64,000 nt of DNA from Candidatus Blautia faecipullorum (GTDB lineage Bacteria; Bacillota; Clostridia; Lachnospirales; Lachnospiraceae). The first letter of the stretch is position 1, and each line of letters opens with the position of its first letter. Position numbers and translations under genes: made by a program. The stretch is taken from the NCBI GenBank assembly GCA_019115125.1, contig DXEG01000039.1, positions 59,216-123,215 of the forward strand, given 5' to 3'. This document shows positions 4,034-43,725 of the stretch, piece after piece. The notes beneath the pieces were generated by a model. That model was given only the letters and a program-made list of their open reading frames with translations, was not told where the DNA came from and did not search any database.

Positions 4034-6460
4034 TTAAAACTCTACTGTTACTTCTTCTCCTTCGTAGACGAAGCTTTCCGTCCGCCCGGTTCCCTCCAGG
4101 ATCACATGACAGGTTCTGCCCTTCAGACCCTGTGCGAATACCTTCTGCGCGGCTCCGATGACAAATACCTTTTCCCGTTCCTTCCAGTTCATAGAAATCC
4201 GGTTGTAATTTCCATTCTCATACCCGTATCCGTCTCCCTCGTCCTCATAGAGGCGGAAAGAAGCGTCCGCGCCCGGATAAATATGGATTTCAAAGGGCGT
4301 GTCTACAATTTCATCCGCATAGGTCATTCTCTGCTCCATAGGAATCACAGAGCCGGCCTTTACAAATACAGGGATCCGGTCGATGGGGGCCTCCACGGTG
4401 ATTTCCGCTCCGCCTTCATATTTCTTTCCGCTGCTGAAATCATACCAGTCCGCGCCCTTCGGCAGATAGCAGTTCCAGGTTTTCTCCCTGTGGATTTCCC
4501 GGCTGTTTTTCTCGTAATACATGGGCTCTGTCACAGGGCAGACCAGAAGACTGTCTCCAAACAGGAATTCGTCTCCGAGCCCGGCCGCCTTATGATCCCC
4601 GGAGAAATCGAACAGAAGGCTCCGGAGCATAGTATAATCCTCGGCCCAAACTCTGGCGGCGTTGGAATAAATATAGGGCATCAGACGGTATCTCATTTCA
4701 ATGGTCTTTACCAGAGCGTCATAGAAAGGCTCCCCTTTCTTTCCGAAATTCCATACCTCTCTGGGCGTGTCTGTTCCGTGAGAGCGGAACATGGGAAGAA
4801 ACGCGCCGTACTCAAACCAGCGCACATACAGCTCACGGTATCCGTAATCCTCTACTCCGGTCTCATAGTCTCCCCGCCAGAACCACTTGGGCGTAGGATC
4901 TTCATTACAGAAACAGCCTCTGTGACGCCAGTTTTCATTCACTGTAAAAAATCCGCCGATATCCAGAGTCCAGTAGGGCATTCCGCTCATGCACATATTC
5001 AGTCCCTCGTGGATCTGCTTTTTCATGGTATCCCAGGAGGCGAAGATATCTCCTGACCAGAGAACCGTGCCGTATTTCTGACTGGAGGCGTAGCCGGAAC
5101 GGGTCAGGTTCAGCACGCGCTTGTCCGGGGCGGCCTTTCTCTGATTTTCGTATATTCCGCGGGCATGAGCGGCGGCATAGAGATTGGCTCTGCCTGCTCC
5201 CAGGAATTTCCTGTGCTCGTCGCCCACCAGCCGGAAACGCTCCCATGGCTCTCTCTTAAACTCACCATTCCAGTCCGGCCCTGAGAAGGGCTCCGTAGAA
5301 TCACACCACCAGGAGTCAAATCCACCGGAAAACAGCTCTCTTTCCGCCTGTTTCCAGTAAATCTCCCGCCCCTTCTCCGAAAAGGCGTCATAGGTGGCGT
5401 AGTCGTTCAGAAGCTGTCCGGCTTCCTTCATTTCCTCATAATCCTCCGTGCCGGCATTCATATTGGGCCACACGGACACCATCGTGTGGATATGCATATC
5501 ATGCAGTTTACGGTTCATAGCGGCAAGATCCGGATATCTCTTTTTATCGACTCTCTTATTGCCCCATTTTCCGGCTTCCCAGGTATTCCAGTCCTGAACC
5601 AGACAGTCCAGGGGAATGTCCAGACTGCGGTACTTTTCCGCCGTTTCCTCCATTTCCTGCTGGGTGAGATAAGCCTCCTTTGACTGTACATATCCAAAGG
5701 ACCATTTCGGCAGCATCACCGCCTTTCCGGTAAGCAGCCGGTAGCCTGCAATGATCTCATCCAGAGAATCTCCCTTGATAAAATAATAATCTAACTGCTC
5801 AACCATATCCAGATACAGCCAGGAGCCCCGGCAGTCGTCGTTGAAGGTCATCAGAGAGCCGCAGTCTACCAGAATACCGTACCCTTTGTCCGACACAAAA
5901 AACGGGATCGGGATCCTCATATTATGCTGATAAAGATACTGCACGTTTCCGCGGTAATCGTAGATTCCCTCTTCTCCCTGCCCAAGGCCATGAATATGTT
6001 CGTCCGGCTCCCAGCAGAAGCTCAGCTTCCCGTGGTACGCCCTGTGATCCTCCACCGCCTTCAGATTTTTCACAAAGTTTCTTTCTCCGTCTACCGTCTG
6101 CACTCTGTGAATGATCGGTTCTTCACCGCCGGTGTTATAAACCATATACGGGGCTTCCGTCAGTTCCTTTCTGCGCTCTCTGAGAAGTACGCGGCTGTCC
6201 GCCGCGTCCTTCCAGACAAAGCCTCCCTCTCTGCAGTCTGCCTCCAGAACAAGCTTCCCTGTATTTATTTTTACGGTCTGTCCTTCCTCTTCCACGGCGA
6301 AGCTTCCCTCCAGAGAAGCTTCAATCCCTATGGGAGACTCCTTCTGCCACTCTTCTTTCTTTGTAAAAGAACATCTTATAATATGATCACGGACAGCCTG
6401 CAGTCTGCAGCTTCCGTCTTTTAACTTAAATTCCAGTTCTTTTCTGTCTGACATACTCAT
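4034..6460 (-). CDS. GH31 family glycosidase, alpha-glucosidase or alpha-xylosidase (808 aa)
   Basis: A cytoplasmic enzyme (no signal peptide) hydrolysing alpha-linked glycosides. The N-terminal beta-sandwich (to about 240) precedes a TIM barrel starting LPKWSFGYVQSKEAY. The catalytic nucleophile is expected at Asp387 in FDSWWCDSTEP and the acid/base at Asp471 in VLWSGDI. The C-terminal beta domains carry the usual RIPVFVKAGSVIPM segment. It begins 27 bases after the permease stop and ends an operon with two MalG/MalF-type permeases, with YesM/YesN and a binding protein nearby, so it probably cleaves the sugar that these import. Whether glucose or xylose is released cannot be decided here. 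Confidence 0.88.
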   Translation of the reverse strand: MSMSDRKELEFKLKDGSCRLQAVRDHIIRCSFTKKEEWQKESPIGIEASLEGSFAVEEEGQTVKINTGKLVLEADCREGGFVWKDAADSRVLLRERRKELTEAPYMVYNTGGEEPIIHRVQTVDGERNFVKNLKAVEDHRAYHGKLSFCWEPDEHIHGLGQGEEGIYDYRGNVQYLYQHNMRIPIPFFVSDKGYGILVDCGSLMTFNDDCRGSWLYLDMVEQLDYYFIKGDSLDEIIAGYRLLTGKAVMLPKWSFGYVQSKEAYLTQQEMEETAEKYRSLDIPLDCLVQDWNTWEAGKWGNKRVDKKRYPDLAAMNRKLHDMHIHTMVSVWPNMNAGTEDYEEMKEAGQLLNDYATYDAFSEKGREIYWKQAERELFSGGFDSWWCDSTEPFSGPDWNGEFKREPWERFRLVGDEHRKFLGAGRANLYAAAHARGIYENQRKAAPDKRVLNLTRSGYASSQKYGTVLWSGDIFASWDTMKKQIHEGLNMCMSGMPYWTLDIGGFFTVNENWRHRGCFCNEDPTPKWFWRGDYETGVEDYGYRELYVRWFEYGAFLPMFRSHGTDTPREVWNFGKKGEPFYDALVKTIEMRYRLMPYIYSNAARVWAEDYTMLRSLLFDFSGDHKAAGLGDEFLFGDSLLVCPVTEPMYYEKNSREIHREKTWNCYLPKGADWYDFSSGKKYEGGAEITVEAPIDRIPVFVKAGSVIPMEQRMTYADEIVDTPFEIHIYPGADASFRLYEDEGDGYGYENGNYNRISMNWKEREKVFVIGAAQKVFAQGLKGRTCHVILEGTGRTESFVYEGEEVTVEF

Positions 6461-6487: not shown

Positions 6488-7318
6488 TCAGCCCTTTACC
6501 GCTCCGGCTGTCTGACCGCCTACAATGTGCTTCTGGCACAGCAGATACATAATAATGACAGGCAGACATGTCAGAAGAATGTCCGCGCAGATCAGATTCC
6601 AGCTCTTGGAATACTGCCCGAAGAAATTATATACTGCCAAAGTCATCGGCCATTTTTCTGAGGAATTCAGGAAGTACAGCGGCATCACAAATTCATTCCA
6701 GGTATTCAGGAAACACAAAACCGCCGCGGTCACCATACTTGACTTCATCATCGGCATTACAATACTGAAAAACAGTTTCCAGGGCCCGCAGCCGTCCAGT
6801 ACCGCGGCCTCGTCCAGGTCTACCGGAACCTTGGACACAAAGCCGTACAGCAGAAATACAGAAAACGGAAGCTGCATAGCCACATAAAGAAGAATAATCC
6901 CAAGTCTTGTATCGTTTAATTGAGTCACCTGCATCACTTTCATAAGAGATACATAGTTCACCGGGATCACAATACCGAGAACCATGTACATATAGAGGGC
7001 GTTGTCTTTCTTTCCGCGCCTTCTTGCCAGCACATAGGCCGCCATAGACGCAAGGATGACTGTAATGATCGTAGCGCACCCCGCGTACATGAGACTGTTC
7101 AGAAAGCTCATACCAAGCTTTCCTTTTTCAATAACAACGGCAAAGTTACTGAACTCCCATACCTCCGGCAGCTTCAGAGAAAGTGTCAGGGCTTCAGAAT
7201 CCGGCTTAAACGCATTGATCACGATCAGCAGAAGAGGGATCAGCATGATCAGAGAAACGATCCATGCCAGAATATTTTTTAAGATTGTCAGCACCATTCT
7301 CTTGGTCTTTGCGTTCAT
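6488..7318 (-). CDS. Carbohydrate ABC transporter permease, MalG type (276 aa)
   Basis: An integral membrane protein with six predicted helices. The cytoplasmic EAA loop, which contacts the ATPase, is seen as DLDEAAVLDGCGPWKLFFSI. The C-terminus ends QKHIVGGQTAGAVKG, the typical end of MalG-type sugar permeases. Its ATG overlaps the stop of the MalF-type gene by one base (TAATG), so the two are translationally coupled. It would pair with the partner permease and the binding protein at 11045. The ATPase is not in this window; many Clostridia use a shared MsmX-type ATPase. Confidence 0.9.
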   Translation of the reverse strand: MNAKTKRMVLTILKNILAWIVSLIMLIPLLLIVINAFKPDSEALTLSLKLPEVWEFSNFAVVIEKGKLGMSFLNSLMYAGCATIITVILASMAAYVLARRRGKKDNALYMYMVLGIVIPVNYVSLMKVMQVTQLNDTRLGIILLYVAMQLPFSVFLLYGFVSKVPVDLDEAAVLDGCGPWKLFFSIVMPMMKSSMVTAAVLCFLNTWNEFVMPLYFLNSSEKWPMTLAVYNFFGQYSKSWNLICADILLTCLPVIIMYLLCQKHIVGGQTAGAVKG

Positions 7319-8193
7319 TACTCTATCACCTCGTCTTTCGTCAAAATCTTAATCATAAAGAAGCCTACGAGCACCATGAAAATGAACATAACGGAACTGA
7401 TGGTTGTACCCGCCGCGTATAGGCCCTGGGAGAACTGTTTAAATACCGCTGTATACATAACCTCGGTGCGGTGTCCCGGTCCTCCGTTGGTCAGAGCGTA
7501 TACCATATCGAACACCTTTAATCCATAAAGCACGTTCAGAACGATCGTCACCGCCAGAGTCTGCTTCAGCATGGGCAGAGTGATATAGATAAACTTATGG
7601 AAGCCGTTGGCGCCGTCGATACCTGCCGCCTCATAATATACATTGGGTATCGCCAGGATTCCCACGATCAGGATCGTCATGATGTATCCGGTTCCTCTCC
7701 AGATATCCACACCCATAACCGACCAGAAGGCAATCTGTGGATCCGTCAGCCACTTCTGAGTGAGAGAATCCATCCCTATCATCCTGAGTCCTTCGTTTAA
7801 AAGTCCGTTCTTCGGATTCAGGATGGAGGTAAATACAAGTCCGATGATCAGAATAGAAAGTACGGAGGGCATATACATTACGCCTCTGTGGAAGTTCTTC
7901 GCCTTAATATTCCGGCTGAGGGCAAGGGCGAACAGAAGTCCCAGACCGGTTTTTGCGGCTGTAGTCACTACTGTAAACAGCAGCGTATTAAGAATGTACT
8001 GTAAATAATCCTGATCGCCGCTGAACACCTCTATAAAATTCTTAAAGCCAACGAAGTGCAGCTCATCAGAATACGCCGACCAGTCCGTAAAGGAATAGCC
8101 GATACCGATGATCCCGGGAACTACGGAAAGGGCTGTATAGATCAGAAGCGCGCCGGCCGCGAAATACCAGGGATAAATTTTTGATTTTTTCAC
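7318..8193 (-). CDS. Carbohydrate ABC transporter permease, MalF type (291 aa)
   Basis: Six transmembrane helices and an EAA loop of the form YYEAAGIDGANGFHKFIYI, typical of MalF-type (CUT1) sugar permeases. The GTG at 8193 is preferred over the ATG at 8208, because the GGAGGAGG ribosome site overlaps that ATG and sits at a good distance from the GTG. It heads the operon MalF-MalG-GH31 and is divergent from the sensor kinase gene, whose response regulator most likely controls it. The sugar is unknown; the linked GH31 suggests an alpha-linked oligosaccharide. Confidence 0.88.
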   Translation of the reverse strand: MKKSKIYPWYFAAGALLIYTALSVVPGIIGIGYSFTDWSAYSDELHFVGFKNFIEVFSGDQDYLQYILNTLLFTVVTTAAKTGLGLLFALALSRNIKAKNFHRGVMYMPSVLSILIIGLVFTSILNPKNGLLNEGLRMIGMDSLTQKWLTDPQIAFWSVMGVDIWRGTGYIMTILIVGILAIPNVYYEAAGIDGANGFHKFIYITLPMLKQTLAVTIVLNVLYGLKVFDMVYALTNGGPGHRTEVMYTAVFKQFSQGLYAAGTTISSVMFIFMVLVGFFMIKILTKDEVIE

Positions 8194-8240
8194 GAAATCC
8201 TCCTCCATTTCTCTTTGTTTTTCTTTATTCTAGGTTAATT

Positions 8241-8366: not shown

Positions 8367-10184
8367 ATGACTCAAAGACACGGCAAAAAAAGCCTTCAGA
8401 CTATTTTATTTTACCGTTTTCTGACGATCGCGGCGGCGCTGCTGATCGTCATATCAGTGATCGTTTATATGATCCAGTATTCCAGTCTGTACAAAAATAT
8501 GGAAAACGATATTCTGCGCACCACCACCTCCATCGGCGCTTCCATTGACCTTCAGATCAGCCAGATGGACAATGTCTGTCTCAATGTGATCAACTCCACC
8601 TCCATAAAAAGCACGTTTGCTCTCTGGAGCCAGGCCAATGAAGGCTCCGCCTATGAACGCAGCCGGCATCAGAACGCTCTCAGCAATGCGCTGATTTCTA
8701 TACGGGGCGTGGACGCTTCTATCCGCCAGGTTAATATTTACCCTATGGAGGGCAGCGGTTACGGAGTTGGGAATTATTACGGTATGCTTTCCGCTGAGAC
8801 CGCGGAGCTTCCCTGGTATGAATCCGCGCTGGAAAAGAACGGATACCGCTATGTATGTGTGGCGGAGCAGCCCCTGCTTTCCAAAAACGCCGGAACCCGC
8901 TCAGACCGTCTCTATCTCTCTCTGTACCGTATGTATTTTGACAATTACCATAATCCCATTGGTTTTGTGGAGGTTCTGAAATACTATGACGATCTTTTTG
9001 CGGACGCCATCCTTCCAAAGACAGAAGCTCCGGTAGACGTTGCCGTCTATGACGGCGACGGGACGCAGGTCTACCCGTACTCAGAGGAAAATACCTCCCG
9101 GGATTTTGATTATTACAACGCTCTGGGGGAAGAAAATGCTGTAAACGGAAATATCCGTCTTTATAACGACAGGGAAAAGCAAAGCGAATATGTTTCTTTT
9201 TCCCGTCTGGATTACAGTGGTTTCACAGTGGTCTGTTCCGTCAGGAACACTGACTTTTTCGTACCAATATTAAAAAGTCTGATGTGGATCCCTCTTCTGG
9301 CTTTCAGTCTGTTTGTGGTCTGTTATTTTGTGGCGGGCTTTCTCAGCCGGAGGCTTGCCAGTCCACTTACTCAGATGCATCAGTTTTTGTCCGACACAGA
9401 TTCCAACGGACAGTTTCAGCTAATACATCTGGAGGACTCCGGCATAATTGAAATCGACCGTCTGCGCGATTCCCTGAACGCTTCCACACAGGCGAAGGAG
9501 GCCGCCACGGAATCCATGCTTGTTATGAAGGAGCAGGAGATCCAGGCGCAGATGCTGGCGCTCCAGGCGCAGATGAATCCTCATTTCCTCTACAATTCAC
9601 TGAATACCATCAGCGCTATGGCAGAGGAAGGGATGACTGAGGAGGTCAGCGGCATGTGTCAGGACATCACTTCCATTCTGCGTTATATTTCCTCAGACAA
9701 AGAGTCTGTTTCCACAGTAGAAGAAGAGCTGGAACACTGCGATCTCTATCTGAGCTGCATGAAAAAGCGCTTTAAGGACTCCTTTACATATGAATTTGAT
9801 ATTGCGGACGATCTGCTGGATCTGAAGATTCCAAAGCTGTGCATCCAGCTCCTCATCGAAAATTCTGTAAAATTCACCTCCCGGACGGCGCCGCCCTGGC
9901 ATATCCGTATTGAGGGGTATATTGACGACGGACAATGGCTGATCTCTGTGAAAGACAATGGTCCGGGCTTTTCTCCGGAGGTAGACAAACATCTTCGCTC
10001 CCAGATGGACCAAATTCTCAAATACAGTGTACTGCCCAGCCTTGAGCTGGACGGAATGGGAATCCTGAATATTTTTATACGTTTTTACCTTCTTTTTGGC
10101 AAAGCTTTTCTGTTTCAGTTTGGCAACCTGCCGGAAAAAGGCGCATTTGTAATCGTAGGAGGACGTTTCCATGAAAAAGATTAA
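8367..10184 (+). CDS. YesM-type sensor histidine kinase (605 aa)
   Basis: A membrane sensor of the LytS/YesM group. An N-terminal helix (about 15-37) is followed by a large extracellular sensing region to about 310, a second membrane segment (LMWIPLLAFSLFVVCYFVAG), a HAMP-like linker, and the His_kinase domain with the phospho-acceptor box QMNPHFLYNSLNTI. The HATPase domain shows IQLLIENSVKF (N box) and VKDNGPGF (G1 box). The GGAGGATACAACT site sets the start. Its end overlaps the response regulator by 14 bases. It probably reads an extracellular sugar or a loaded binding protein and switches on the divergent permease-GH31 operon. Confidence 0.92.
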   Translation: MTQRHGKKSLQTILFYRFLTIAAALLIVISVIVYMIQYSSLYKNMENDILRTTTSIGASIDLQISQMDNVCLNVINSTSIKSTFALWSQANEGSAYERSRHQNALSNALISIRGVDASIRQVNIYPMEGSGYGVGNYYGMLSAETAELPWYESALEKNGYRYVCVAEQPLLSKNAGTRSDRLYLSLYRMYFDNYHNPIGFVEVLKYYDDLFADAILPKTEAPVDVAVYDGDGTQVYPYSEENTSRDFDYYNALGEENAVNGNIRLYNDREKQSEYVSFSRLDYSGFTVVCSVRNTDFFVPILKSLMWIPLLAFSLFVVCYFVAGFLSRRLASPLTQMHQFLSDTDSNGQFQLIHLEDSGIIEIDRLRDSLNASTQAKEAATESMLVMKEQEIQAQMLALQAQMNPHFLYNSLNTISAMAEEGMTEEVSGMCQDITSILRYISSDKESVSTVEEELEHCDLYLSCMKKRFKDSFTYEFDIADDLLDLKIPKLCIQLLIENSVKFTSRTAPPWHIRIEGYIDDGQWLISVKDNGPGFSPEVDKHLRSQMDQILKYSVLPSLELDGMGILNIFIRFYLLFGKAFLFQFGNLPEKGAFVIVGGRFHEKD

Positions 10185-10944
10185 ACATTACAACATTATG
10201 CTGGTGGAGGACGAAGTACTGCTCCGCCAGTCGCTGGCCCGCCATATTGACGCCCTCGAATCAGGCTATAAGGTAGTCTGTCAGGTGCCGGACGGGCAGG
10301 CTGCCCTGGAGGCCCTGCGCACCGAGGATATTCATTTGATCATCACCGATATCCGTATGCCGGTTATGGACGGGCTGGCTCTTGCAAAAAATGTCCATGA
10401 CCGTTATCCGCATATTCTTACCATTGTTCTTTCCGGCTACGCAGATTTCGAATATGCCCAGGAAGCTCTGCGTCAGGGAGTTTTTGACTATCTTCTGAAG
10501 CCTGTTTCCAGAGAAAAGCTGGAGAGTACCCTTGGAAAAGCCAGCCTCCTTCTTGAAAAGCATTTTCAGCTTGAGGAGGACACCGCCATGGTCGGGAAGG
10601 ATTCCCAGGAGATTGTTGATTATGTGCTCCTCTATATCCGCAGTCATTATATGGACGAGGTGGATTTTTCCGAGCTGTCATCCCGTATGGGCTTCAGTTC
10701 CGCCTATCTGACAAAGTTATTCAATAAATATGTAGGGCATACGCCTCTGAAATATCTGACCGACATACGTATTCACGAGGCGAAGCATCTGCTTCTGAAC
10801 ACGAGCCTTCCTATCCGGGAGGTTGGGGAAAAAGTAGGATATCCCGATCAGTTTCATTTCAGCAAGACCTTCCGCAAGCTGACAGGAGTGAATCCCACCG
10901 CTTACCGCCAGTCCCCGCCGGAAACCCGCGAGGATTTGTCCTGA
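10171..10944 (+). CDS. YesN-type AraC-family response regulator (257 aa)
   Basis: The receiver domain (about 8-125) has the acidic pair in LVEDE, the phospho-acceptor Asp in LIITDIRMPVMDG and the conserved Lys in YLLKPVS. The C-terminal part (about 150-250) is a double helix-turn-helix of the AraC type ending FRKLTGVNPTAYRQ. It is coupled to the sensor kinase (14-base overlap, GGAGGA site inside the kinase gene). It should activate the neighbouring sugar transport genes when phosphorylated. Confidence 0.93.
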   Translation: MKKIKHYNIMLVEDEVLLRQSLARHIDALESGYKVVCQVPDGQAALEALRTEDIHLIITDIRMPVMDGLALAKNVHDRYPHILTIVLSGYADFEYAQEALRQGVFDYLLKPVSREKLESTLGKASLLLEKHFQLEEDTAMVGKDSQEIVDYVLLYIRSHYMDEVDFSELSSRMGFSSAYLTKLFNKYVGHTPLKYLTDIRIHEAKHLLLNTSLPIREVGEKVGYPDQFHFSKTFRKLTGVNPTAYRQSPPETREDLS

Positions 10945-11044: not shown

Positions 11045-12343
11045 TTACTGCCACGCTTCGTCTCCAACCGCTTCTGCCTGGGTTGCTCTTCTTTCGTCAA
11101 TGGCGTTAAGAACATCTTCTGAAGTCATGTCTCCGATGAACATGGATACGATATCCTGAGTCAGCTCTGTCCACTGAGGATTCAGGTATTTGATGCTGTC
11201 CTGGAATACGGTTCCCTGTTTTTCCGCAGTTTCAATGAATGTATTGGTTTCCTCGCTGTAGCTTGGAGTCTGTCCTACGTCAAAAGGAAGATTTTCAATC
11301 TTATCGCAGTTATCGATCATGTACTGTACACCATCGGCAGACGCGATGTACTCCAGATACTGTTTTGCCTCATCCTGATGTTCGGAACCGGAATAAATAA
11401 ATCTGGACGGTCCGCAGGGATGTACGTTCAGCACATCATTGTCCATCAGAGGGATCAGGAACATTCCAAAATCGTCTTCTGTGTATGTACCGCCGGAAGC
11501 CTCCGCGATAGCCGCGATCTGACCTGGTTTTTCCAGTGCCATTGCGTATTCGCCGCTTCCCAGATTCATAAGAAGGTCTGTGTATTCGTCGGACAGATAG
11601 TTGTCTCCGAAATAGCCTTTCTGAGCCATATCATTGATCTGATCGAGAGCTTCCTTCAGCTCCGGAACATCTGCGAATTTAATTTCATTGTTATTCAGAG
11701 AATCTACGATTCCCGGAACAAGCTCTTCGTATTTTCCGCCGATCTCAGTGAACCACATGGTCTGATGCCATCCGTCCGCGCAGGGCTCATAGATGGGGAT
11801 AATGTCGTTGTCAAGAAGCGTCTGGCAGGCTTCCTCGAACTCCGCGTATGTGGTGGGAACTTCAATATTATTTTCCTCAAAAATCTTCTTATTATAAATC
11901 ACATAATAATCTGTAGAAACATCATAGTAGGTCATTCCATAAACCTTATCGCCCACGGATGTCTGCGCCTTTGCGAACTCGTCATAGGTTTCTACCCATG
12001 CCTGATCGGAAAGATCCACCGCGTTTTTCTCAACATTGTACTGAGAAACGATATCAAAGCTTCCGGACTGTCCGCCAAAAATGTCCGGGCCCTCGCCGCT
12101 GTTCAGCTTCGTCATCAGCATATTATAATACTGGTCAGCCGGAACGATCTGATAATCTACCTTAATACCGGTTTCCTCTTCGAACTGCTTGCCGAGCTCC
12201 ATTTCCGCATCATATACCCAGTCCTGGCTTGCCATCACAGTGATCGTGGTGCCTTCCGCAGCCTGTACGGTTTCTGCCTGAACTGTCATAGCGCTTGCCA
12301 TCATCACTCCGCACAACAGTGCAGCCACTACTCTTTTCTTCAT
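11045..12343 (-). CDS. Carbohydrate ABC transporter substrate-binding protein (432 aa)
   Basis: The ATG at 12343 is chosen: AGGAGGG sits 8 bases upstream and the product starts with a clean signal peptide (MKKRVVAALLCGVMMASAMTVQA). Upstream in-frame codons would add a non-secretory leader. The mature protein has family 1 sugar-binding protein features (TITVMASQDW, GKQFEEETGIKVDYQ, LNSGEGPDIF). It is the probable binding component for the MalF/MalG-type permeases on the other side of the YesM/YesN pair. No lipobox Cys is evident in this reading, although most Gram-positive homologues are lipoproteins. Confidence 0.85.
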   Translation of the reverse strand: MKKRVVAALLCGVMMASAMTVQAETVQAAEGTTITVMASQDWVYDAEMELGKQFEEETGIKVDYQIVPADQYYNMLMTKLNSGEGPDIFGGQSGSFDIVSQYNVEKNAVDLSDQAWVETYDEFAKAQTSVGDKVYGMTYYDVSTDYYVIYNKKIFEENNIEVPTTYAEFEEACQTLLDNDIIPIYEPCADGWHQTMWFTEIGGKYEELVPGIVDSLNNNEIKFADVPELKEALDQINDMAQKGYFGDNYLSDEYTDLLMNLGSGEYAMALEKPGQIAAIAEASGGTYTEDDFGMFLIPLMDNDVLNVHPCGPSRFIYSGSEHQDEAKQYLEYIASADGVQYMIDNCDKIENLPFDVGQTPSYSEETNTFIETAEKQGTVFQDSIKYLNPQWTELTQDIVSMFIGDMTSEDVLNAIDERRATQAEAVGDEAWQ

Positions 12344-12524
12344 ATTAAAAACCCTCCTGTTTTTTGATAGTTTTATCTTAACAGCACATTCTACAATATA
12401 ACATGGAAATAGCGCGGCTGTTTTTGTCAATTTTTAACTTCTTCCTGCAGAGGAGGGTAAGCGAGACATGCCGGATGCAATTAAGGATAACTCAGCAGTG
12501 TGGAAAAAGAGTATAGGAACTGCA

Positions 12525-12580: not shown

Positions 12581-15439
12581 TTATCTTCCAAGCGACTCGC
12601 AGAATGTCCCCTTTACATCACTCCAGTTCTTTTCTGCATAGTCCAGAAGGTATACCGCCTGTTCCATGGACATCTCCGGGAAAAGAAGGAAGAGGCTGTG
12701 GGATCCGTATTTCTTAACAATACGGTCTACATTTCTGATCCAGTCCTCAAATTCTCCTGAATACACCTTCACCCAGATTGATTTGCCTGCGGCGATCGCT
12801 TTATCATAAATTACATCCCAGTCCGGAAGCGTACCGTCTGGGCCCGCGTCTCCGCTGGTCCACTGAAGAGCGTCGATCCCGTCGATTTCCATGAGCGCAT
12901 CCATGTGCTTGATCGCTGCCGGTCCGTCCAGATGATAGAGTACATGATCCGCCTTTTCGGACTGCGTACGCAGAGACGGCTGGATGTAGGTACGGAAATC
13001 ATCCGGGGCCATCATAGCGGAAAAGTCACACTGGAGCTTCACAGTTTTGCCCGGCCCCCAGATCTGGAATACTGTATAAGCGTTTCCGCCTTCCTCATCC
13101 TTGATCGCGTCATAGAAGCGGTTATAGTAATCATAATAGCAGTCTGTAACCTCCTGGATTCTCTGTCCCACCTTCTCCGGCTCGTCCAGAAGATCCATAA
13201 GCACGTCCTGAGCTCCTCTAAGAGACGCAAGTACGTCAATGTTCTCCATCAGGTCTGGCATATCTACATAGAAATCACTTCCCGCCAGCTCGCGGCAGTC
13301 TTTTGCAAGCTGTAGATGCTTTTTAAACCATTCATTGTCCGGGTCAAACTGCAGCTTCGGAACACCGTCCCAGCTATCCAGACATTTTTTAAACCATACG
13401 GTATCCTCTTTAAAGCCGATATCAGAACCCAGATATGCCGCAAGAGATCCCGGCCCAAAGTCAATATTCAGATTGGGGAAGCTCTCTCCCAGGAAGGCAT
13501 GCGTCTCGCAGAAATAACGATAGCGGTCAACGATTCTCTGAGCGTTCTGATACTTATCCTCCATATCCTTCCATTTCAGTTCTTCCGGCATGTTATAATA
13601 CTTACCCTGACAGATCTGATCCAGATATCCGCCTTCTACCGGAGTTCCGTCGGAATACTGCTCTACCTCCGGTCTTCTGGCGATCACGCACATCAGCGGT
13701 CTTCCTGTATTTTTATGGTTCCAGTAATTTCTGAATTTCTCTTTTGTCTTATCCCAGTCCAGCTTATATCCTTCCCCTGGCTCCGGCAGACGTACTGAGC
13801 TGATATCCACCGCGCTCTTGTCAAAGCTCACCTTCACTTCCGGCTCCGCCTCAGAAACTTTTACTTTAGCTTCTTCATCCTTGGACGCCGCTGCCTTTGC
13901 CGCTTTTTCCGCTTCCATAGCGGCGATTTCTTCAGCGGAAAGATCAAATTCTCCTGCCGCGGCTCTTGCGCAGAAGCCGGAGTCAGAGTATTCCTTGGCT
14001 TTCTCTGCCGCGGACGCCGCATCCTCTGTATATGCGTCCGCACCAATCTCGTCCGCGAATGCCTGCGTGATCGGCGCGCCGCCTACCATGATCTTAATAC
14101 GGGGACGGAACGGCTGCTCCAGGAGAGCCGCTACTGTATTGCGAAGAGACGGCATCGTTGTAGTCAGGAGCGCGGAAAGGGCTACGATAGTAGCGTCCTT
14201 ATGCTCGTTCACCGCATCAATGAAAGTCTGAATCGGCACATCCACACCAAGATCGATTACTTCGAATCCGGCGCTCTCGAACATCATTCCAACCAGATTT
14301 TTACCGATGTCATGAAGGTCGTCCGCAACCGTACCAAGAATGATCTTGCCCGCACTGCCCGCTTCGCCTGTTGCCAGATGAGGCTTCAGCACCTCCACGC
14401 CTGCTTTCATGGCCCGGGCTGCAGCCAGCATCTGGGGAACAAAAATGATTTCCTTTTTGAAATTCTCTCCCACTACGGCCATAGCTCCGATCATGCCGTC
14501 GTTGAGGATCGCCGTGGGATCACATCCCGCATCCAGGGCTTCCTGTACGCGCTGTCCGATTTCTTTGTTTTTACCGTTCTCAGTAGCTTTAAATACAGCC
14601 AGCATTTTCTCGTCCATTGGATTCTGAGGCTTCGCCTCTGCCGGAGCTTCCTCTGTACGGCTGTTGAATTTCGCGATATAATTCAGGCAGTAATCGTCCT
14701 TCTCCAGAAGGGCGTTTGTGGCATAGATCATACCGATCATGTTTTTATTGGTAGGATCCACGATCGCGCTGTCCATTCCCGCGTTCATGGCAAGCACCAT
14801 AAACGCCTGATTGATGTTCTTTCTCACCGGCAAACCATAGGATATGTTGGAAAGTCCGCTGGTAATGTGAATATCCGGATATTCCGCCTTGATCTGACGG
14901 CAGCATTCCGCAAACACCGTCAGCGCAGTCAGGTCCGTGGAAAGAGTAACTACCAGGGGATCAATGTGAAGGCGGTTCGGCGCGATCTTATATTCTTTCG
15001 CCTTTTCCATGATCCCGTGAAATACCTTCATACGTTTTTCCACGGAATCCGGAATTCCGTCATTGTCACAGAGCAAAGCCACACATTCCCAGTCTGTATC
15101 CGCGATTACCGGGAAAATCGTATCGATCTTATTTCCCTCCAGAGAAACAGAGTTTACAAGTCCGGGACGCTTACAGAGCCTGATGCCTTCCGCACAGGTT
15201 CTGGCGCTGGGGCTGTCCACACAGATCCGCGTATCTGTGACCTCCTGTACAAGATCGATCATCCATTTCAGGGTTTCTACTTCCACTTCCTCTTCCACAG
15301 AAGCGCATACATCCAGAAAATCCGCTCCGGCTTCCGCCTGCATTCTGGCTCTCTCACGGATAAGGTCCGCATCTCTTTCCGCAATGGCCTTCGCAACTGA
15401 GGGAATGGATCCGTTCAGTTTTTCTCCAATAATAATCAT
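12581..15439 (-). CDS. Tri-domain methyltransferase: MeTr - corrinoid protein - UroD fusion (952 aa)
   Basis: Three modules normally made as separate proteins are fused. Residues 1-250 are a pterin-binding MeTr domain (opens MIIIGEKLNGSIP; HIDPLVVTLSTD; SGLSNISYGLPVR), the type that moves methyl between a corrinoid and tetrahydrofolate. Residues 280-485 are a corrinoid protein: a helical cap, then a Rossmann domain with the cobalt-ligand His376 in VADDLHDIGK and GGAPIT later. A charged Ala/Lys/Glu linker (490-550) leads to a UroD-type domain (555-952). Its expected zinc site reads YHLDG, so the HxC of MtaA/CmuA thiol methyltransferases is missing. The ATG at 15439 follows GGAGGA. A plausible role is demethylation of an unknown methylated substrate, with the methyl passed to tetrahydrofolate. 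A divergent AraC gene is the likely regulator. Confidence 0.85.
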   Translation of the reverse strand: MIIIGEKLNGSIPSVAKAIAERDADLIRERARMQAEAGADFLDVCASVEEEVEVETLKWMIDLVQEVTDTRICVDSPSARTCAEGIRLCKRPGLVNSVSLEGNKIDTIFPVIADTDWECVALLCDNDGIPDSVEKRMKVFHGIMEKAKEYKIAPNRLHIDPLVVTLSTDLTALTVFAECCRQIKAEYPDIHITSGLSNISYGLPVRKNINQAFMVLAMNAGMDSAIVDPTNKNMIGMIYATNALLEKDDYCLNYIAKFNSRTEEAPAEAKPQNPMDEKMLAVFKATENGKNKEIGQRVQEALDAGCDPTAILNDGMIGAMAVVGENFKKEIIFVPQMLAAARAMKAGVEVLKPHLATGEAGSAGKIILGTVADDLHDIGKNLVGMMFESAGFEVIDLGVDVPIQTFIDAVNEHKDATIVALSALLTTTMPSLRNTVAALLEQPFRPRIKIMVGGAPITQAFADEIGADAYTEDAASAAEKAKEYSDSGFCARAAAGEFDLSAEEIAAMEAEKAAKAAASKDEEAKVKVSEAEPEVKVSFDKSAVDISSVRLPEPGEGYKLDWDKTKEKFRNYWNHKNTGRPLMCVIARRPEVEQYSDGTPVEGGYLDQICQGKYYNMPEELKWKDMEDKYQNAQRIVDRYRYFCETHAFLGESFPNLNIDFGPGSLAAYLGSDIGFKEDTVWFKKCLDSWDGVPKLQFDPDNEWFKKHLQLAKDCRELAGSDFYVDMPDLMENIDVLASLRGAQDVLMDLLDEPEKVGQRIQEVTDCYYDYYNRFYDAIKDEEGGNAYTVFQIWGPGKTVKLQCDFSAMMAPDDFRTYIQPSLRTQSEKADHVLYHLDGPAAIKHMDALMEIDGIDALQWTSGDAGPDGTLPDWDVIYDKAIAAGKSIWVKVYSGEFEDWIRNVDRIVKKYGSHSLFLLFPEMSMEQAVYLLDYAEKNWSDVKGTFCESLGR

Positions 15440-15728
15440 GATTCCGTTTCCTCCGCATTCTTTATATGCGACCATTTTATCCTTTTTTCCGCCGGAATGC
15501 GTCTACTATTTTTTGCAGAATATGTACTATTTTTTGATTTTAGGTAACAGTTGCGCAGAGGCCTGCAGAGACCGGGTACCTTTTCCGGAAGCTTTATGGT
15601 ACAATATACTCGAAAATCCAGCCGCTTCGCGTCTGACGCGCCTTGCGCTCTGTGATTCTCAGATACCAGTACAGTCCCCTCTCTGCAGGGGTACAGTCTT
15701 CAGATAAAGAGCAAGAAAGGAAACCCGC

Positions 15729-16586
15729 ATGAAACTAGAACGAGATAACATTCCTTTAAATAAAGATTTTCCTTTTCAGATTTCCAGAGTGATCCTCAAC
15801 TCAGAAAACAGCCGTCCGGATACCTGGCACTGGCACAGCTATTTTGAGATTACCTGCGTACAGCGGGGCAGAGGAACTTACTTTGTCAACGGGCAGGAAT
15901 ACACTATGGATAAGGGTGATATCATCATCTTTAATAATGTGGAGCCTCACGGCTGGAATCTTCTGGATGAGGACATGGAGCTTCTGGTTATGATCTTTTC
16001 TCCGGAATTCGTGGCGGAAAAGCTCAGCTTTTTTGACGCCGGATATCTGAAGCCCTTTGTAGAACGGGGCAGCAATTTCAAAAACCGCATCGGCAGCGAG
16101 GAGCCTGTCAGTCATGAGATCCGCAAGGGAATCCGGGAGATCTACCGGGAATGGGAAGAAAAAAAAGACGGCTACAACCTTATGATCAAGGCAAATATCC
16201 TGCGTATCCTTACCATTCTAATCCGCGCCTATCAGGATGAAAGTAAATCTGATGAAATGCTGAAGGAAAAGAAAAATGCCATGAAACGGCTGGAGCAGGC
16301 TTTTCAGTACATTAACAGCCACTTCTGCGGCAAAATCACTCTGGAGGAAGCCGCCGGAGCCGCTTATATGAGCCCCAGCTACTTTTCCACCTACTTCCGC
16401 AAGGTGACAAATGTCAGCTTCAGCGAATATGTGACCCGTCTTCGGATTTCTCATGCCCGGGAACTTCTGAAAAATACAGACAGCAGCGTAACCGATATTG
16501 CCATGGAATGTGGATTCAATAATATTTCCAACTTTTACCGGCTGTATAAGCGTCACACAGGCAGGTCTCCCCGAGAGGATCTCTGA
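15729..16586 (+). CDS. AraC-family transcriptional regulator with cupin sensor (285 aa)
   Basis: An N-terminal cupin-like AraC_binding domain (DTWHWHSYFEITCVQRG; NNVEPHGWNLL) binds a small effector, and the C-terminal 100 residues hold two helix-turn-helix motifs (ITLEEAAGAAYMSPSYFSTY; ITDIAMECGFNNISNFYRLY-like). An AAGGAAA site sets the start. It is divergent from the tri-domain methyltransferase, 289 bases apart, so it probably responds to that enzyme's substrate and activates the gene. Confidence 0.9.
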   Translation: MKLERDNIPLNKDFPFQISRVILNSENSRPDTWHWHSYFEITCVQRGRGTYFVNGQEYTMDKGDIIIFNNVEPHGWNLLDEDMELLVMIFSPEFVAEKLSFFDAGYLKPFVERGSNFKNRIGSEEPVSHEIRKGIREIYREWEEKKDGYNLMIKANILRILTILIRAYQDESKSDEMLKEKKNAMKRLEQAFQYINSHFCGKITLEEAAGAAYMSPSYFSTYFRKVTNVSFSEYVTRLRISHARELLKNTDSSVTDIAMECGFNNISNFYRLYKRHTGRSPREDL

Positions 16587-21282: not shown

Positions 21283-21296
21283 ATTTTCACCTGCCT

Positions 21297-21863
21297 TCAG
21301 ACACGATCCTGCCAGGAGGCCCAGGCCTCTTTATAATCTGAAAATCCCTCCGCCTGTACAGATTCTTCATATAGCTGTATTTCAAACTCCGGAATCAGAC
21401 TGAGACTATCCGGGTCTACTTTTGAAGAATCAATATAAAATCCTGTAAACAACGGAGTGGTGGATTCTCCCTCCTTCAGAGATTTTCTGAAATAATAATA
21501 GCCATCCTCCCCATGTATCCAGTTTTCAGTATCAAGCTCTTTAAAAACTACAGCCTGGAAAATATCACTGTGAGAGCATCCAACGGCCATTCTCACATAA
21601 CAGTCCGCCAGAAAACCCTCCTGCTCCGGTGAGGTATTCGAAATCCAGACCTTTTTTTCATACTCAGGATTTTCCTCCACCGGCGCGGGGGAGGGATCCG
21701 GAAATTCCTCTTCTATACCTGTCGTATTGCTCCCGACAGATATGCTGTTTTCCGCCTTGTCGAAAGAGGTCAGATACGCAGCCGTACTGCCGATCCCAAA
21801 AATTCCTGCCGCACATACCAGGCAGGCTGCAGGAAAAACCTTCATTTTCTTTCTGTGCTTCAT
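21297..21863 (-). CDS. SipW-dependent TasA-like protein (188 aa)
   Basis: A short basic start (MKHRKKMK) is followed by a hydrophobic segment and GSTAAYLTSFDKAENSISVG, the hallmark of SipW-type signal peptides and TasA/camelysin proteins. The rest is predicted beta-rich, with the motif SLKEGESTTPLFTGF shared with the sister protein upstream. The ATG at 21863 is used; a GTG at 21887 would add eight residues and cannot be excluded. It probably assembles as a secreted fibre or matrix subunit. Confidence 0.75.
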   Translation of the reverse strand: MKHRKKMKVFPAACLVCAAGIFGIGSTAAYLTSFDKAENSISVGSNTTGIEEEFPDPSPAPVEENPEYEKKVWISNTSPEQEGFLADCYVRMAVGCSHSDIFQAVVFKELDTENWIHGEDGYYYFRKSLKEGESTTPLFTGFYIDSSKVDPDSLSLIPEFEIQLYEESVQAEGFSDYKEAWASWQDRV

Positions 21864-21894
21864 AATTTTACCTGTTTCCTTTCTCACACAGCGG

Positions 21895-39692: not shown

Positions 39693-41819
39693 TTACATCA
39701 TAGGCTCAAGAGAAAGAGCAGGATGATTCTTTTCTGCGAGGAACGCGACCAGCGCCTCCGGATCGGTAGCTACCGTCTCGTCGCCTACCATATCCGTAAA
39801 ATTATCAATTCCGTACATTTCTTTTGCTGTTTTGTTCAAGCGTTCCGCAACAAACTCCTTCAGTTCTCTGGGCATCCAGACGATTCTCTCGATACCGCCC
39901 TCCGCCTTCATGAACTTCTTCGAGGATATAAAGTGTTTTCCGTGTCCCATGAAGCCGGGAGTCTGTACGCCGCCTCCGGTCATAGACGCCATCTCCGGGA
40001 AGGTCATTCCAAGAGGCGTCATACCCGCATATTCACGGTTGGCGATCACCACCCCGTTGGAGAACGGTTCAATTCCGCAGATACACTCGAAACATCCGCA
40101 GGAGGTCATAGGATCCTGCATAATGGAATAAAGAGTTACATGCTCCAGAGCTCCCTGAGAGAATTTTTTCACCGCTTCATCCACATCCTCGTAAGCTCCG
40201 AGATTCTCGTCTATGGGTCGCTCTTTTGTGATCACCTGACAGGGGCCGTTGGGATCCAGTTCATTGGTCGCTTTTGCGTCCAGCCATGAAACAGCTCCGC
40301 ACAGTCCCAGGCGTTCCGGAGTCACCACGCATACATGGCTGGGCGAGAATGCCTGACAGAGAATACAGCTATAATAAACCTCCACCGACTCGTCAGTCAG
40401 ATTGTCCAGACGTTCGTCACGCTTCTCAAAGGTAGGAACCGCAATCTCATGACGCACTCTCTTACATTCCTCAGGATCCGTGTAGATCACCACCTCACAT
40501 TTGTCCACAACAGCGTCAAACTCATTTTTGACCTGCGCGTAGAGAACCTCCCCGATGTGTCTGATACGGAAGCCCGCGTTGAAAGCGTCGATACTGATAC
40601 GGATACGCTGCATATCTCTCTGCCCGGTATGGTACACGCCCTCAATACAGTTGATGTAATTATGGAACTTACGCTCGATCACCGGCTCGAAATCCGCCTG
40701 CATGTTCTTTCCGGACACCTTTACGATATAAGCGATATTATTTTTGCTTCCCAGCTCCATCTCGTCCGCTTCCGGCCCGATCACAGTAATCCTGTGATCC
40801 TCCACCTCGCCGGCGCCGCAGGTCTGCACAAGCTCCGCGCAGTCTACGCGGGAGCCGTCGAATTCCACCTGCATATCCTTGCGGCGGATGATCTCCCCTT
40901 CAAAGGCGGATGCGAAGGCAACCGGAATATCAATATTCGTAATTTTTATCTTAATGTCCCTCGCTTCCAGAGAAGTAGTGTTCCATCTGGAAATATCCGG
41001 CTGGCATATCAGGCTCCTGGGTACTTTTGCCACTCCCTCCTGGTTTGTGATAACCGGGAAGCCAAGAGCGATAGCTCCCGCTCCGCAGGCTACGATCACA
41101 TCGTTTAACGGCGCAAAAGCATTCACAAAGGCCGGAACACGTTTCAGGGTATATTCCATCAATGTTCCCGCGTCGCCCGGTTTTACGTTTCCAAAAATCA
41201 GAGCCGCGCGCAGCGCCACGGAAACCACATGAATCACTGCCGTTACATCCTTTCCAAGGGGGATCACACGGACGTTGGCTCCGGTCTTAAAGCTAGCCTC
41301 CGCAAGCTGGTCAATGATATCTCCTACCAGAGTTACAAGGATTCCCTGGGCCTGATAGGATTTTACAAGGGCAGCCGCTTCCTCCGCGCTGGGCGCCCTG
41401 CCCAGGATTACCGCCACGCCCGGAATATCGCCTGTTACCAGAGGCACGCCCAGCTCACGGATCACCGCGTCCGCCAGATGACCGTAGCAGGGCTCTTCAT
41501 AGGGAGCCGCGCCGTCAATGTATTTCAGCGCTTCGATAAACTCCGCGCAAAGAGCTGTGGCGACGCCGGACATAAATATATCATGGGTCTTCTTCTCTCT
41601 TGTCATGAGAGTCTTCACAACACCGAGAGCTTCCTTCAGCTCCGCGAGAGTACCTATCTTTGTTCCTGTCACCGCATAATAGCAGGGAAGAGAATACGCA
41701 GTATTCGGAAAGCTTACAGCCTTGTCCGCCCCGTATGTTTCGACAGCATGACTGACCGCATCCTCCGCAAGTCCATAAACCGCATCATTTCCCGCGAAAA
41801 CACTTTCAAATAAAGTCAC
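39693..41819 (-). CDS. acsB: Acetyl-CoA synthase, CODH/ACS complex (708 aa)
   Basis: It makes acetyl-CoA from CO, a methyl group on the corrinoid protein, and CoA. The GTG at 41819 follows AAGGAGGGG; its first residues TLFESVFAGNDAVYG match the family start. The A-cluster ligands are all present: C-x2-C-x8-C-x9-C (CILC, HVC, GLCG) for the Fe4S4 site and the Cys-Gly-Cys of SCGCFECICG for the distal nickel. The length is close to that of known AcsB. It follows acsA by 13 bases, so the two are co-transcribed. The corrinoid protein (acsC/acsD), acsE and cooC are not next to it in this window. Confidence 0.95.
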   Translation of the reverse strand: MTLFESVFAGNDAVYGLAEDAVSHAVETYGADKAVSFPNTAYSLPCYYAVTGTKIGTLAELKEALGVVKTLMTREKKTHDIFMSGVATALCAEFIEALKYIDGAAPYEEPCYGHLADAVIRELGVPLVTGDIPGVAVILGRAPSAEEAAALVKSYQAQGILVTLVGDIIDQLAEASFKTGANVRVIPLGKDVTAVIHVVSVALRAALIFGNVKPGDAGTLMEYTLKRVPAFVNAFAPLNDVIVACGAGAIALGFPVITNQEGVAKVPRSLICQPDISRWNTTSLEARDIKIKITNIDIPVAFASAFEGEIIRRKDMQVEFDGSRVDCAELVQTCGAGEVEDHRITVIGPEADEMELGSKNNIAYIVKVSGKNMQADFEPVIERKFHNYINCIEGVYHTGQRDMQRIRISIDAFNAGFRIRHIGEVLYAQVKNEFDAVVDKCEVVIYTDPEECKRVRHEIAVPTFEKRDERLDNLTDESVEVYYSCILCQAFSPSHVCVVTPERLGLCGAVSWLDAKATNELDPNGPCQVITKERPIDENLGAYEDVDEAVKKFSQGALEHVTLYSIMQDPMTSCGCFECICGIEPFSNGVVIANREYAGMTPLGMTFPEMASMTGGGVQTPGFMGHGKHFISSKKFMKAEGGIERIVWMPRELKEFVAERLNKTAKEMYGIDNFTDMVGDETVATDPEALVAFLAEKNHPALSLEPMM

Positions 41820-41832
41820 TGTAATCCCCTCC

Positions 41833-43725
41833 TTAAATGCCAAGCGCCGAACGCTTCTCTTCAATACGGGCTATCATCCTGTCGCCCAGTTTATCAATAT
41901 CTGTTTCAATAAAGTAGGAAGCCTCCACCCAGTCACGGATTCCCTCTGTCAGCCACCATACCACCTCGCTGGAACCAGTCACCTGAGGCTCTACGCCAAG
42001 GAAGGTGTCAATTCCGGTAGCTACTACATAGTTTCCGATGGAGACCGCTTTTTCGGACATCCATTCCGGAGCGCAGCCTACCACAGGAAGCTGGGAGATA
42101 TTCAGGCCGGAATCCTTCGCAAGCTGGGAGGCCAGCACTACCATACGGCTGATATCCACACAGGAGCCCATATGCAGTACCGGAGGAATATCCGCAAGCT
42201 CACAGACACGCCTTAATCCGTCGCCGCAGAGCTCTTTCGCCTGCTTGTCCATCAATCCGGCTCTTGCTGCCGCCTGAGCGGAGCAGCCAGAAAGGATCAC
42301 AATAATATCATTGGCGATCAGCTTCTTCATCAGTCCGATATGAGCGGAATCCGGACGGACTCTGGGATTATTGCAGCCTACCATCGCCACAGCTCCGCGG
42401 ATAACGCCGGAAGTAATGCAGTCCAGCAGAGGTTTAGTGGTCCCTGTCTCATCCACCTGAGAATTTGTCACACCGTCCAGGGTTTTTATGATTGCTTCTA
42501 CAGAATAGCCCACGGTAGCCTTCTGTTTTAACTGTGGAATATGTACCAGCTCTTTCTTTCTGTTTACAAAATTTTCCACCGCCATTCTGACGATCTTTCT
42601 GGCCTTTTCCCCGGCGGAGCCCGCCTCAAAAAGAATAAATTCGGAATCCGGCATCTGCGCGATCTTAGACGTTGTGATAAATTTTGTATGGAAGCATTTG
42701 CTCAGCGGCCCCAACGCCGGGAAAATGCACTGCACATCTACCACGATCGCTTCGCAGGCTCCTGTCAGCACTACATTTTCCTGCTGAAGGAAATTTCCGG
42801 CCATCGGCACTCCCCGGCGCATTGCGACCTCATTGGAGGTACAGCAGACTCCGGCCACGTTGATTCCCTTCGCTCCTACTGATTTCGCAAGAGCGATCAT
42901 CTCGGGATCTTCCGCGTACTCACAGATCATCTCAGAGAGACTGGGATCATGTCCATGTACGATAATATTCACTTCGTCTTCTTTCATTACGCCCAGGTTC
43001 GCTTCTGTATCCACTGGTTTTGGCGTGCCAAACATAATATCTGAAAATTCTGTTCCCGCCATGGAGCCGCCCCATCCGTCGGACATGCCGGAACGAAGGG
43101 ACTGACGGATCAAAGCTTCCGCCTTGCTGGAATTTCCCATATGGGTCATATGCATCGCGGTAGCCACTTCACGGTCAATGGCGCGGGGTTCTATTTCCGC
43201 GTCATGCCACAATTTCTGCGTATGCTCCGGAGCGCGGGACAGCCATCTCTGCACGCCGTATGGCTTTCCATATTCCATCAGAGCAAGCTCCGCCATCTCG
43301 TGAGCCAGATCATAAATATCTCTTCCCTCTGTCTCAACGCCCCATTCTTTCGCAATACGGAGAAGCTTCTCCGGATCCTTCACCTTATAATCGCCGTCCG
43401 GCGCCACATGGGTAAAGGTATGGCAGATTTCACGTCCATGGTCAGAATGGGTAGCGGCTCCGCCCGCCACAAAGCGCAGGAAATTTCTTCCTACAATTCC
43501 ATGGGCGTCACAGCCGCAGATTCCCCTGGGCGCCTTGGGAGTGATCCGGCAGGGTCCCATGGAACAGATACGGCAGCAGATTCCTTTTTCTCCAAATTTG
43601 CAGTGAGGAGTCTGATTTTTCACACGAAGCTGCCAGGAATCCGCTCCTACCTTCGCTCCTGTTTCCAGCAGGCGCTCTGTGGCTTTCTCAAACTCTTCCA
43701 CTGATGACAGTTTAAATTCACTCAT
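41833..43725 (-). CDS. acsA: Carbon monoxide dehydrogenase catalytic subunit (630 aa)
   Basis: It interconverts CO2 and CO and passes CO to AcsB. The N-terminal cysteine set HCKFGEKGICCRICSMGPCR holds the B and D cluster ligands. Further family segments are GVCCTSNEVAMRRG and CSAQAAARAG, with cluster C cysteines in the second half. Length and start (AGGAGGG before the ATG) are normal. It precedes acsB and is divergent from a LysR gene, with a leader that contains a terminator-like hairpin. Confidence 0.95.
   Translation of the reverse strand: MSEFKLSSVEEFEKATERLLETGAKVGADSWQLRVKNQTPHCKFGEKGICCRICSMGPCRITPKAPRGICGCDAHGIVGRNFLRFVAGGAATHSDHGREICHTFTHVAPDGDYKVKDPEKLLRIAKEWGVETEGRDIYDLAHEMAELALMEYGKPYGVQRWLSRAPEHTQKLWHDAEIEPRAIDREVATAMHMTHMGNSSKAEALIRQSLRSGMSDGWGGSMAGTEFSDIMFGTPKPVDTEANLGVMKEDEVNIIVHGHDPSLSEMICEYAEDPEMIALAKSVGAKGINVAGVCCTSNEVAMRRGVPMAGNFLQQENVVLTGACEAIVVDVQCIFPALGPLSKCFHTKFITTSKIAQMPDSEFILFEAGSAGEKARKIVRMAVENFVNRKKELVHIPQLKQKATVGYSVEAIIKTLDGVTNSQVDETGTTKPLLDCITSGVIRGAVAMVGCNNPRVRPDSAHIGLMKKLIANDIIVILSGCSAQAAARAGLMDKQAKELCGDGLRRVCELADIPPVLHMGSCVDISRMVVLASQLAKDSGLNISQLPVVGCAPEWMSEKAVSIGNYVVATGIDTFLGVEPQVTGSSEVVWWLTEGIRDWVEASYFIETDIDKLGDRMIARIEEKRSALGI

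Follow-up and report, generated by a model that had tools for sequence, protein, structure and literature searches.

The window is a 64,000-nucleotide stretch of DNA from Candidatus Blautia faecipullorum (Lachnospiraceae; assembly GCA_019115125.1, contig DXEG01000039.1, positions 59,216–123,215 of the forward strand). The gene under study, on its minus strand, encodes a corrinoid methyltransferase in which a methyltetrahydrofolate methyltransferase (MeTr) domain, a corrinoid-binding domain and a domain of the UroD/MtaA fold form one polypeptide. The open reading frame (ORF) at 12581–15475 codes for 964 amino acids (aa). As a GGAGG sequence at 15454–15450 lies in front of a start at 15439, the 952-aa form that begins there is preferred, and residue numbers refer to it unless 964-aa numbering is stated. 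The gene and its parts, with tetrahydrofolate abbreviated as THF, are as follows.

12581..15439, minus strand: fused three-domain corrinoid methyltransferase, 952 aa; ORF open to 15475
14657..15439, minus strand: methyl-THF:corrinoid methyltransferase domain, residues 1–261; NF005719; closest PDB entry 4o0q; Asp75, Asp160 and Asn198 kept
13991..14605, minus strand: corrinoid-binding domain, residues 279–483; cobalt-ligand His376 in DLHDIG
13781..13990, minus strand: linker, about residues 484–553, joining the corrinoid and UroD-like domains; variable and Ala/Glu/Lys-rich, placed from the sequences and the alignment consensus
12584..13780, minus strand: UroD/MtaA-fold substrate methyltransferase domain, residues 554–952; HLD motif at 836–838; assigned by fold

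Three domains in one chain

Sequence profiles and a structure model agree with an earlier sequence-only reading that three domains are joined in the 952-residue chain. Pfam places Pterin_bind at 30–240, B12-binding_2 at 296–364 and B12-binding at 376–489 (964-aa numbering). The N-terminal domain is a methyl-THF methyltransferase: it exceeds the cut-off of NCBIfam NF005719 (342.6 bits versus 259) and its closest solved structure is 4o0q (E 1.6e-96), which is much nearer than the remaining MeTr structures (E 1.6e-38 or weaker) and nearer than MetH as well. Entry 4o0q is presumably a component of the Desulfitobacterium hafniense O-demethylase. Residues Asp75, Asp160 and Asn198 align with residues of known role in the MeTr structures 2e7f and 1f6y, and the MeTr motifs are intact as first described, as is the cobalt ligand His376, the histidine of DLHDIG. 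An AlphaFold2 model of the complete fusion was of low quality (predicted local distance difference test (pLDDT) 65.3, predicted template modeling score 0.47) and was uninformative on domain packing and the linker.

The C-terminal domain is divergent. Its PF01208 (URO-D) score of 10.7 bits (E 0.26) falls below the gathering cut-off of 23.9, searches of PDB by phmmer and with a profile of 42 relatives gave chance-level matches only, PHROGs provided no match, and NCBIfam had none for this part of the protein or for two standalone relatives. In contrast to the profile searches, an AlphaFold2 model built on an alignment of the 42 relatives reached a pLDDT of 91.7, and Foldseek placed first the Methanosarcina mazei methyltransferase 4ay7 (E 2.6e-8; template modeling (TM) scores 0.58/0.67), which we take to be MtaA. 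The sister entry 4ay8 and then uroporphyrinogen decarboxylases followed, and cobalamin-independent methionine synthases stood lower down. As the sequence profile falls below its cut-off, the UroD label rests on the predicted fold: the domain belongs with UroD-superfamily substrate methyltransferases by fold, and not by the PF01208 profile alone. The concern that it might group with porphyrin decarboxylases was not borne out, in that the URO-D score (10.7 versus 23.9 bits) does not admit it to that family and the top fold match is a methyltransferase, a comparison of profiles and folds made without a tree of known enzymes. The subthreshold profile and TM scores of just 0.58/0.67 would also suit a different TIM-barrel enzyme, such as a sugar lyase or isomerase, that is merely tethered to the methyl-transfer pair. 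This is highly unlikely, as the first 16 fold matches are all M. mazei methyltransferase or UroD structures and a corrinoid protein is listed for every one of the 26 genomes with the UroD-like family that are described below.

The YHLDG sequence reported previously is present at residues 835–839. Its His-Leu-Asp-Gly portion is shared without exception by the 42 aligned relatives, which likewise all keep Cys804 and Asp805. The coenzyme M methyltransferase MtaA carries an HxC motif. This zinc motif of MtaA/MtbA is absent from the C-terminal domain, in which HLD (42/42) seems to stand in its place, positional equivalence being judged by motif only. According to the available text of PMC10418091, S-methyltransferases of the superfamily use His-Cys-Cys and replacement of cysteine by a carboxylate favors an oxygen ligand; HxD therefore fits an O-demethylase. 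The original observation that HxC is missing stands, but HxD does not by itself imply that a metal is lacking, as a carboxylate favors an oxygen ligand (PMC10418091). The CdmB protein indicates that a UroD-type enzyme can work without zinc (PMC13222342, available text). The motif also bears on the proposal that the protein demethylates some other small methyl compound (methyl-sulfur, haloalkane or methylamine) and sits in sugar-rich regions by chance. Related UroD-superfamily enzymes do use sulfur and halogen compounds (PMC10418091, PMC13222342), but HxD replaces HxC here, the available text of PMC10418091 associates sulfur with His-Cys-Cys and oxygen with a carboxylate, and glycosidases are recurrent adjacent neighbors in families f1 (that of the window), f10 and f40. 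The proposal is accordingly improbable.

Distribution of fused and standalone proteins

A scan of genome contigs with six peptide patterns, all drawn from the fused protein, gave 72 loci, of which 26 (L032–L057) carry the fusion. Since such a scan reaches close relatives only, the proportion of fused to standalone proteins is no census. The fused loci include the isolates B. caecimuris DSM 29492, B. schinkii DSM 10518, Blautia sp. MSJ-19 and Robinsoniella peoriensis, and the window is 94% identical to named Blautia loci. An assembly or sequencing join, which had been put forward as a possible source of the fusion, was rejected because 26 loci, isolates among them, carry the same chain. Two of these loci (L038 and L044) run off the end of their contigs, and L056 as read has an incomplete MeTr part. 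With the window included, all 27 fused proteins have DxHDIG and thus the DxHxxG signature of corrinoid proteins, 26 have the three MeTr motifs (not L056), and 26 have HLDG (L044 ends at the contig edge).

The C-terminal domain occurs unfused in 45 loci (L058–L102). One of these, L094, is the second half of the fused protein in L044, whose gene lies across two contigs of the same genome; without it 44 standalone loci remain. The last locus, L103, matches just the methyl-transfer part, at 24%. A tree of 95 rows groups all 28 fused rows in a single supported clade of 30 (96/93) that encloses two standalone rows. The simplest reading is one fusion followed by later splitting or loss. Locus L067 (9995–16408) was considered as an unfused counterpart: a standalone UroD-like gene is followed by genes for a RACo-type activator, a canonical URO-D protein, MeTr and a corrinoid protein. 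As a clean counterpart it was weakened by the second, canonical URO-D gene, which lies between RACo and MeTr so that the MeTr and corrinoid genes may serve it instead. The two UroD-type proteins of this locus may share one corrinoid relay.

The statement in the sequence-only reading that the three functions normally reside in separate proteins was overstated: MetH joins folate and cobalamin modules and CmuA, the chloromethane methyltransferase, joins methyltransferase I (MTI) with a corrinoid protein (PMC13222342, available text). As natural partial fusions exist, the joining of such parts in one chain is not in itself unprecedented. The protein resembles MetH in having a folate module and then a cobalamin module in one chain, and the MetH model aligns with its residues 11–548 (964-aa numbering). 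However, the match spans only model positions 341–901 of 1182, the C-terminus here is UroD-like, and at 234.8 bits versus a cut-off of 1010.85 it is not a full-length MetH. CmuA likewise combines MTI and corrinoid functions, but its methyltransferase II (MTII; CmuB) is separate and its substrate is different. In composition it parallels the three-component O-demethylases MtvABC, Odm and Vdm, which comprise a UroD-superfamily MTI, a corrinoid protein, an MTII and an activating enzyme (PMC12915777, PMC13222342; available text). Those systems consist of separate proteins that act on aromatic ethers, whereas the present one is a single chain with a divergent UroD-like domain and sugar-gene neighbors. 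The fold is shared with the MtaA/SCMT coenzyme M methyltransferases and Mlp proteins, 4ay7 being the top structural match, but these have HxC rather than HxD and characteristically use coenzyme M as acceptor (PMC10418091, available text). An artificial methyltransferase–corrinoid protein fusion of the D. hafniense O-demethylase also joins MTI to its corrinoid protein and was functional when engineered (PMC9930637, available text), although it is man-made, has two domains and acts on aromatic substrates.

Gene neighborhoods and genomic co-occurrence

Downstream of the fused gene lie a same-strand sugar-binding protein gene of an ATP-binding cassette (ABC) transporter, a two-component pair on the opposite strand, two permease genes and a gene of glycoside hydrolase (GH) family 31. 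The divergent AraC-cupin regulator noted previously is present on the other side. These genes, and the acetyl-CoA synthase (AcsB) and CO dehydrogenase genes further along, are located as follows.

15729..16586, plus strand: AraC-cupin regulator, divergent; members of its BLAST cluster occur in 20 loci
11045..12430, minus strand: sugar ABC transporter solute-binding protein, next downstream of the fused gene
10171..10944, plus strand: AraC-type response regulator, named from translation; recurrent neighbor
8367..10184, plus strand: sensor histidine kinase, named from translation; recurrent neighbor
7318..8208, minus strand: sugar ABC permease 1, named from translation; recurrent neighbor
6488..7318, minus strand: sugar ABC permease 2, named from translation; recurrent neighbor
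4034..6460, minus strand: GH31 glycosidase; nearest solved relatives are alpha-xylosidases
39693..41864, minus strand: AcsB, about 24 kb from the fused gene
41833..43725, minus strand: CO dehydrogenase, about 24 kb from the fused gene

The four best solved relatives of the window GH31 are alpha-xylosidases. GH families in other loci were typed on representatives by Pfam, or by PDB match for GH138, and in the remaining loci by tblastn. The GH138 assignment derives from a match to BPa0997 (PDB 6hzf, E 6.6e-170), for which the title of entry 6hze is 'GH138 enzyme targeting pectin rhamnogalacturonan II'. Directly upstream of the standalone UroD-like gene (≤400 bp, same strand) GH31 was found in 16 of 44 loci, a raw count rather than an enrichment over background, and these members sit on several branches of the tree. 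Directly downstream, GH106 was found in 11 of the 44 and GH138 in five. At least one of GH31, GH106, GH138, an apiosidase-like enzyme and GH95 was present in the fetched stretch of 32 of the 44. The association is weaker among the 26 fused loci, where GH31 occurs in nine and GH95 in two, at least one of the five enzymes in ten, and sugar ABC genes like those of the window in 16. Adjacency of GH31 to the UroD-like gene also was evident in three genomes outside the window's family, which belong to f10 and f40 (G443, G612 and G334, the last with an apiosidase-like gene and a sugar kinase in addition), and a genome of the window's own family (G214) has the order GH31-UroD-GH95. The substrate was treated as unknown in the sequence-only reading; the conserved neighbors (GH31, GH106, GH138, apiosidase-like, GH95 and sugar ABC transporters) instead point to O-methyl sugars.

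Other genes were observed in these regions. A sulfatase-family gene, typed in L079, lies about 5–6 kb downstream of the GH106-linked UroD-like gene in L079, L083 and L097. An approximately 326-aa protein is encoded downstream of the fused gene in six loci, namely L047 (8426–9403) and, as related DNA, L046, L049, L050, L053 and L056; the L047 copy had no match in Pfam, PDB or NCBIfam. Beside the AraC gene, positions 16637–23017 of the window encode a large surface protein with a SpaA-type domain (1145 aa), which recurs in three of the 72 scan loci. Three smaller proteins of secreted appearance and an ORF resembling signal peptidase, these four named from their translations, are encoded in the same stretch.

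Co-occurrence was assessed in 299 genomes (298 genera) of the window's family. At E≤1e-5 the C-terminal domain was detected in 26, of which 19 had at least 58% identity and seven only 24–46%. GH138 was present in ten genomes, all among the 19 close ones, or 10/26 family-positive genomes versus 0/273 others (Fisher 3.9e-12). A non-MetH corrinoid protein (ORF <350 aa, or fusion) accompanied the domain in 26/26 genomes versus 43/273 others by hand count among the listed matches (E≤4.8e-55), weaker matches lying outside this count. AcsB was found in 14/26 versus 24/273 (p 9e-8). The association of the domain with GH138 is strong within the window's family but thin elsewhere.

The same neighborhoods bear on whether the substrates are methoxylated aromatic aglycones (flavonoids or lignans) that the glycosidases only set free. 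The MeTr domain is closest to 4o0q, presumably a D. hafniense O-demethylase component, 11 of the 44 standalone loci have GH106 directly downstream, and rutinosides contain rhamnose. The UroD-superfamily O-demethylases MtvB, OdmB and VdmB use methoxylated aromatics (PMC13222342, available text). On the other side, GH138, apiosidase-like and GH95 enzymes act on cell-wall glycans, all ten GH138 genomes of the family sample have the UroD-like family, and sugar ABC transporters and an alpha-xylosidase-like GH31 indicate sugars, so that aromatic substrates appear unlikely. The opposite direction, in which a sugar or glycan would be methylated at the expense of methyl-THF, is very improbable: the chemistry is reversible in principle, but the setting of importer, glycosidase and AraC-type regulator is catabolic and AcsB is enriched.

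The AcsB and CO dehydrogenase genes lie about 24 kb from the fused gene as first reported, and are a likely sink for its methyl groups. The window genome has three AcsB copies, one beside CO dehydrogenase in the window and two in tandem on contig C43. RACo-type activators are available, with three hits in this genome and examples in the fetched flanks of three of the 26 fused loci. In the same genome, contig C5 (L129) holds RACo, a MeTr gene (64%) and a corrinoid match together, which is a separate corrinoid methyltransferase system. On contig C35 (L130, 5302–11842) a corrinoid protein 65% identical to the fused domain is encoded between two 815-aa ORFs, the first of which codes for a pyruvate formate-lyase-type glycyl radical enzyme.

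A putative O-demethylase for methylated sugars

Transfer of a methyl group from substrate through the UroD-like domain, the corrinoid and MeTr to methyl-THF is very likely the general scheme of the protein. The earlier proposal of a demethylase that feeds methyl groups to THF in an acetogen fits the evidence, the MeTr domain being closer to 4o0q than to other MeTr structures and MetH, and is supported in part. The protein is probably a self-contained corrinoid O-demethylase that acts on O-methylated sugars, judged from domains, motifs and neighbors, and an O-methyl sugar is favored as the substrate to the same moderate degree. The adjacent ABC transporter would import an O-methyl sugar or short glycoside, which GH31 would trim. 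The C-terminal domain would then take the methyl group from the ether oxygen, for which His836 and Asp838 may hold an activating metal. The Co(I) form of the tethered corrinoid domain, liganded by His376, would accept the methyl group, and this domain would swing on its linkers to the N-terminal MeTr domain, where methyl-THF would be made for the Wood-Ljungdahl pathway. The freed sugar would be fermented, and a separate RACo-type protein would restore Co(I).

Rhamnogalacturonan II (RG-II) carries 2-O-methyl-xylose, in side chain A, and 2-O-methyl-fucose, and a transferase adds xylose to fucose (PMC12168206, available text). The Bacteroides enzyme BT1002 frees 2-O-methyl-xylose-alpha-1,3-fucose from chain A (PMC10154630, available text). 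As chain A carries 2-O-methyl-xylose, BT1002 frees the disaccharide, and the window has both an importer and an alpha-xylosidase-like GH31, 2-O-methyl-xylose is the leading candidate, although a tentative one. In the GH106-linked branch the substrate may be 2-O-methyl-fucose of chain B, because arabinofuranose and rhamnose must be removed before GH139 acts (PMC12282258, available text).

A number of observations weigh against these assignments. The Fisher and p-values take no account of shared ancestry, and a divergent GH138 could be missed since the query was taken from a locus linked to the UroD-like family. The acetogenic sink is not universal: 12 of 26 family-positive genomes are without AcsB, and as only four of the ten GH138 genomes possess it (six do not), the methyl sink is not always acetogenesis. 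Outside the family, a class-level sample of 361 genomes (E≤1e-20) yielded a homologue in 45, most at 25–40% identity, and GH138 in two, only one of which (G612) has the UroD-like family. In G612 the GH138 match is a 59-aa fragment immediately downstream of a homologue with 60% identity, whereas the other genome (G544) has GH138 and no homologue, which amounts to 1/45 homologue-positive genomes versus 1/316 others. In the window genome GH138 was not found at E≤0.001; the organism would therefore be a scavenger. The specificity of the window GH31 is that suggested by its nearest relatives. The 11 GH106-linked loci form one close-knit branch and so are not independent, and GH106 enzymes may also act on flavonoid glycosides. 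Among the fused loci, 16 of 26 (13 of the 23 above 12 kb) have none of the five glycosidases. Six of these (L039–L042, L054 and L057) have parts of a different transporter cluster and an AraC-type gene, with a binding-protein gene in five; in L057, the only one typed, it is rhamnose-like, a monosaccharide transporter of CUT2 type whose binding protein resembles RhaS. Given this CUT2-type cluster, the substrate sugar may be another. Finally, the fetched flanks of the standalone loci contain a MeTr gene in only four of 44 and a corrinoid gene in one.

RG-II is described as common in the human diet in the available text of PMC12282258. Among the titles and abstract openings listed by the literature searches, which covered open PMC papers, no description was found of demethylation of RG-II O-methyl sugars by anaerobes, nor of the three-domain set alongside sugar genes. 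The prospects are about even that the protein is the first corrinoid-dependent demethylase of sugar methyl ethers, through which gut acetogens and their relatives would use RG-II O-methyl groups anaerobically as one-carbon units (2-O-methyl-xylose with GH31; 2-O-methyl-fucose or another methyl sugar with GH106), with the relay fused in Blautia and Robinsoniella, where cross-feeding on Bacteroides-released disaccharides may occur. The natural one-chain enzyme is a convenient starting point for demethylation biocatalysis, in which such fusions are engineered (PMC9930637, available text). If the assignment is correct, a sugar-ether demethylase would widen the substrate range of corrinoid methyltransferases and would connect pectin breakdown with acetogenesis.

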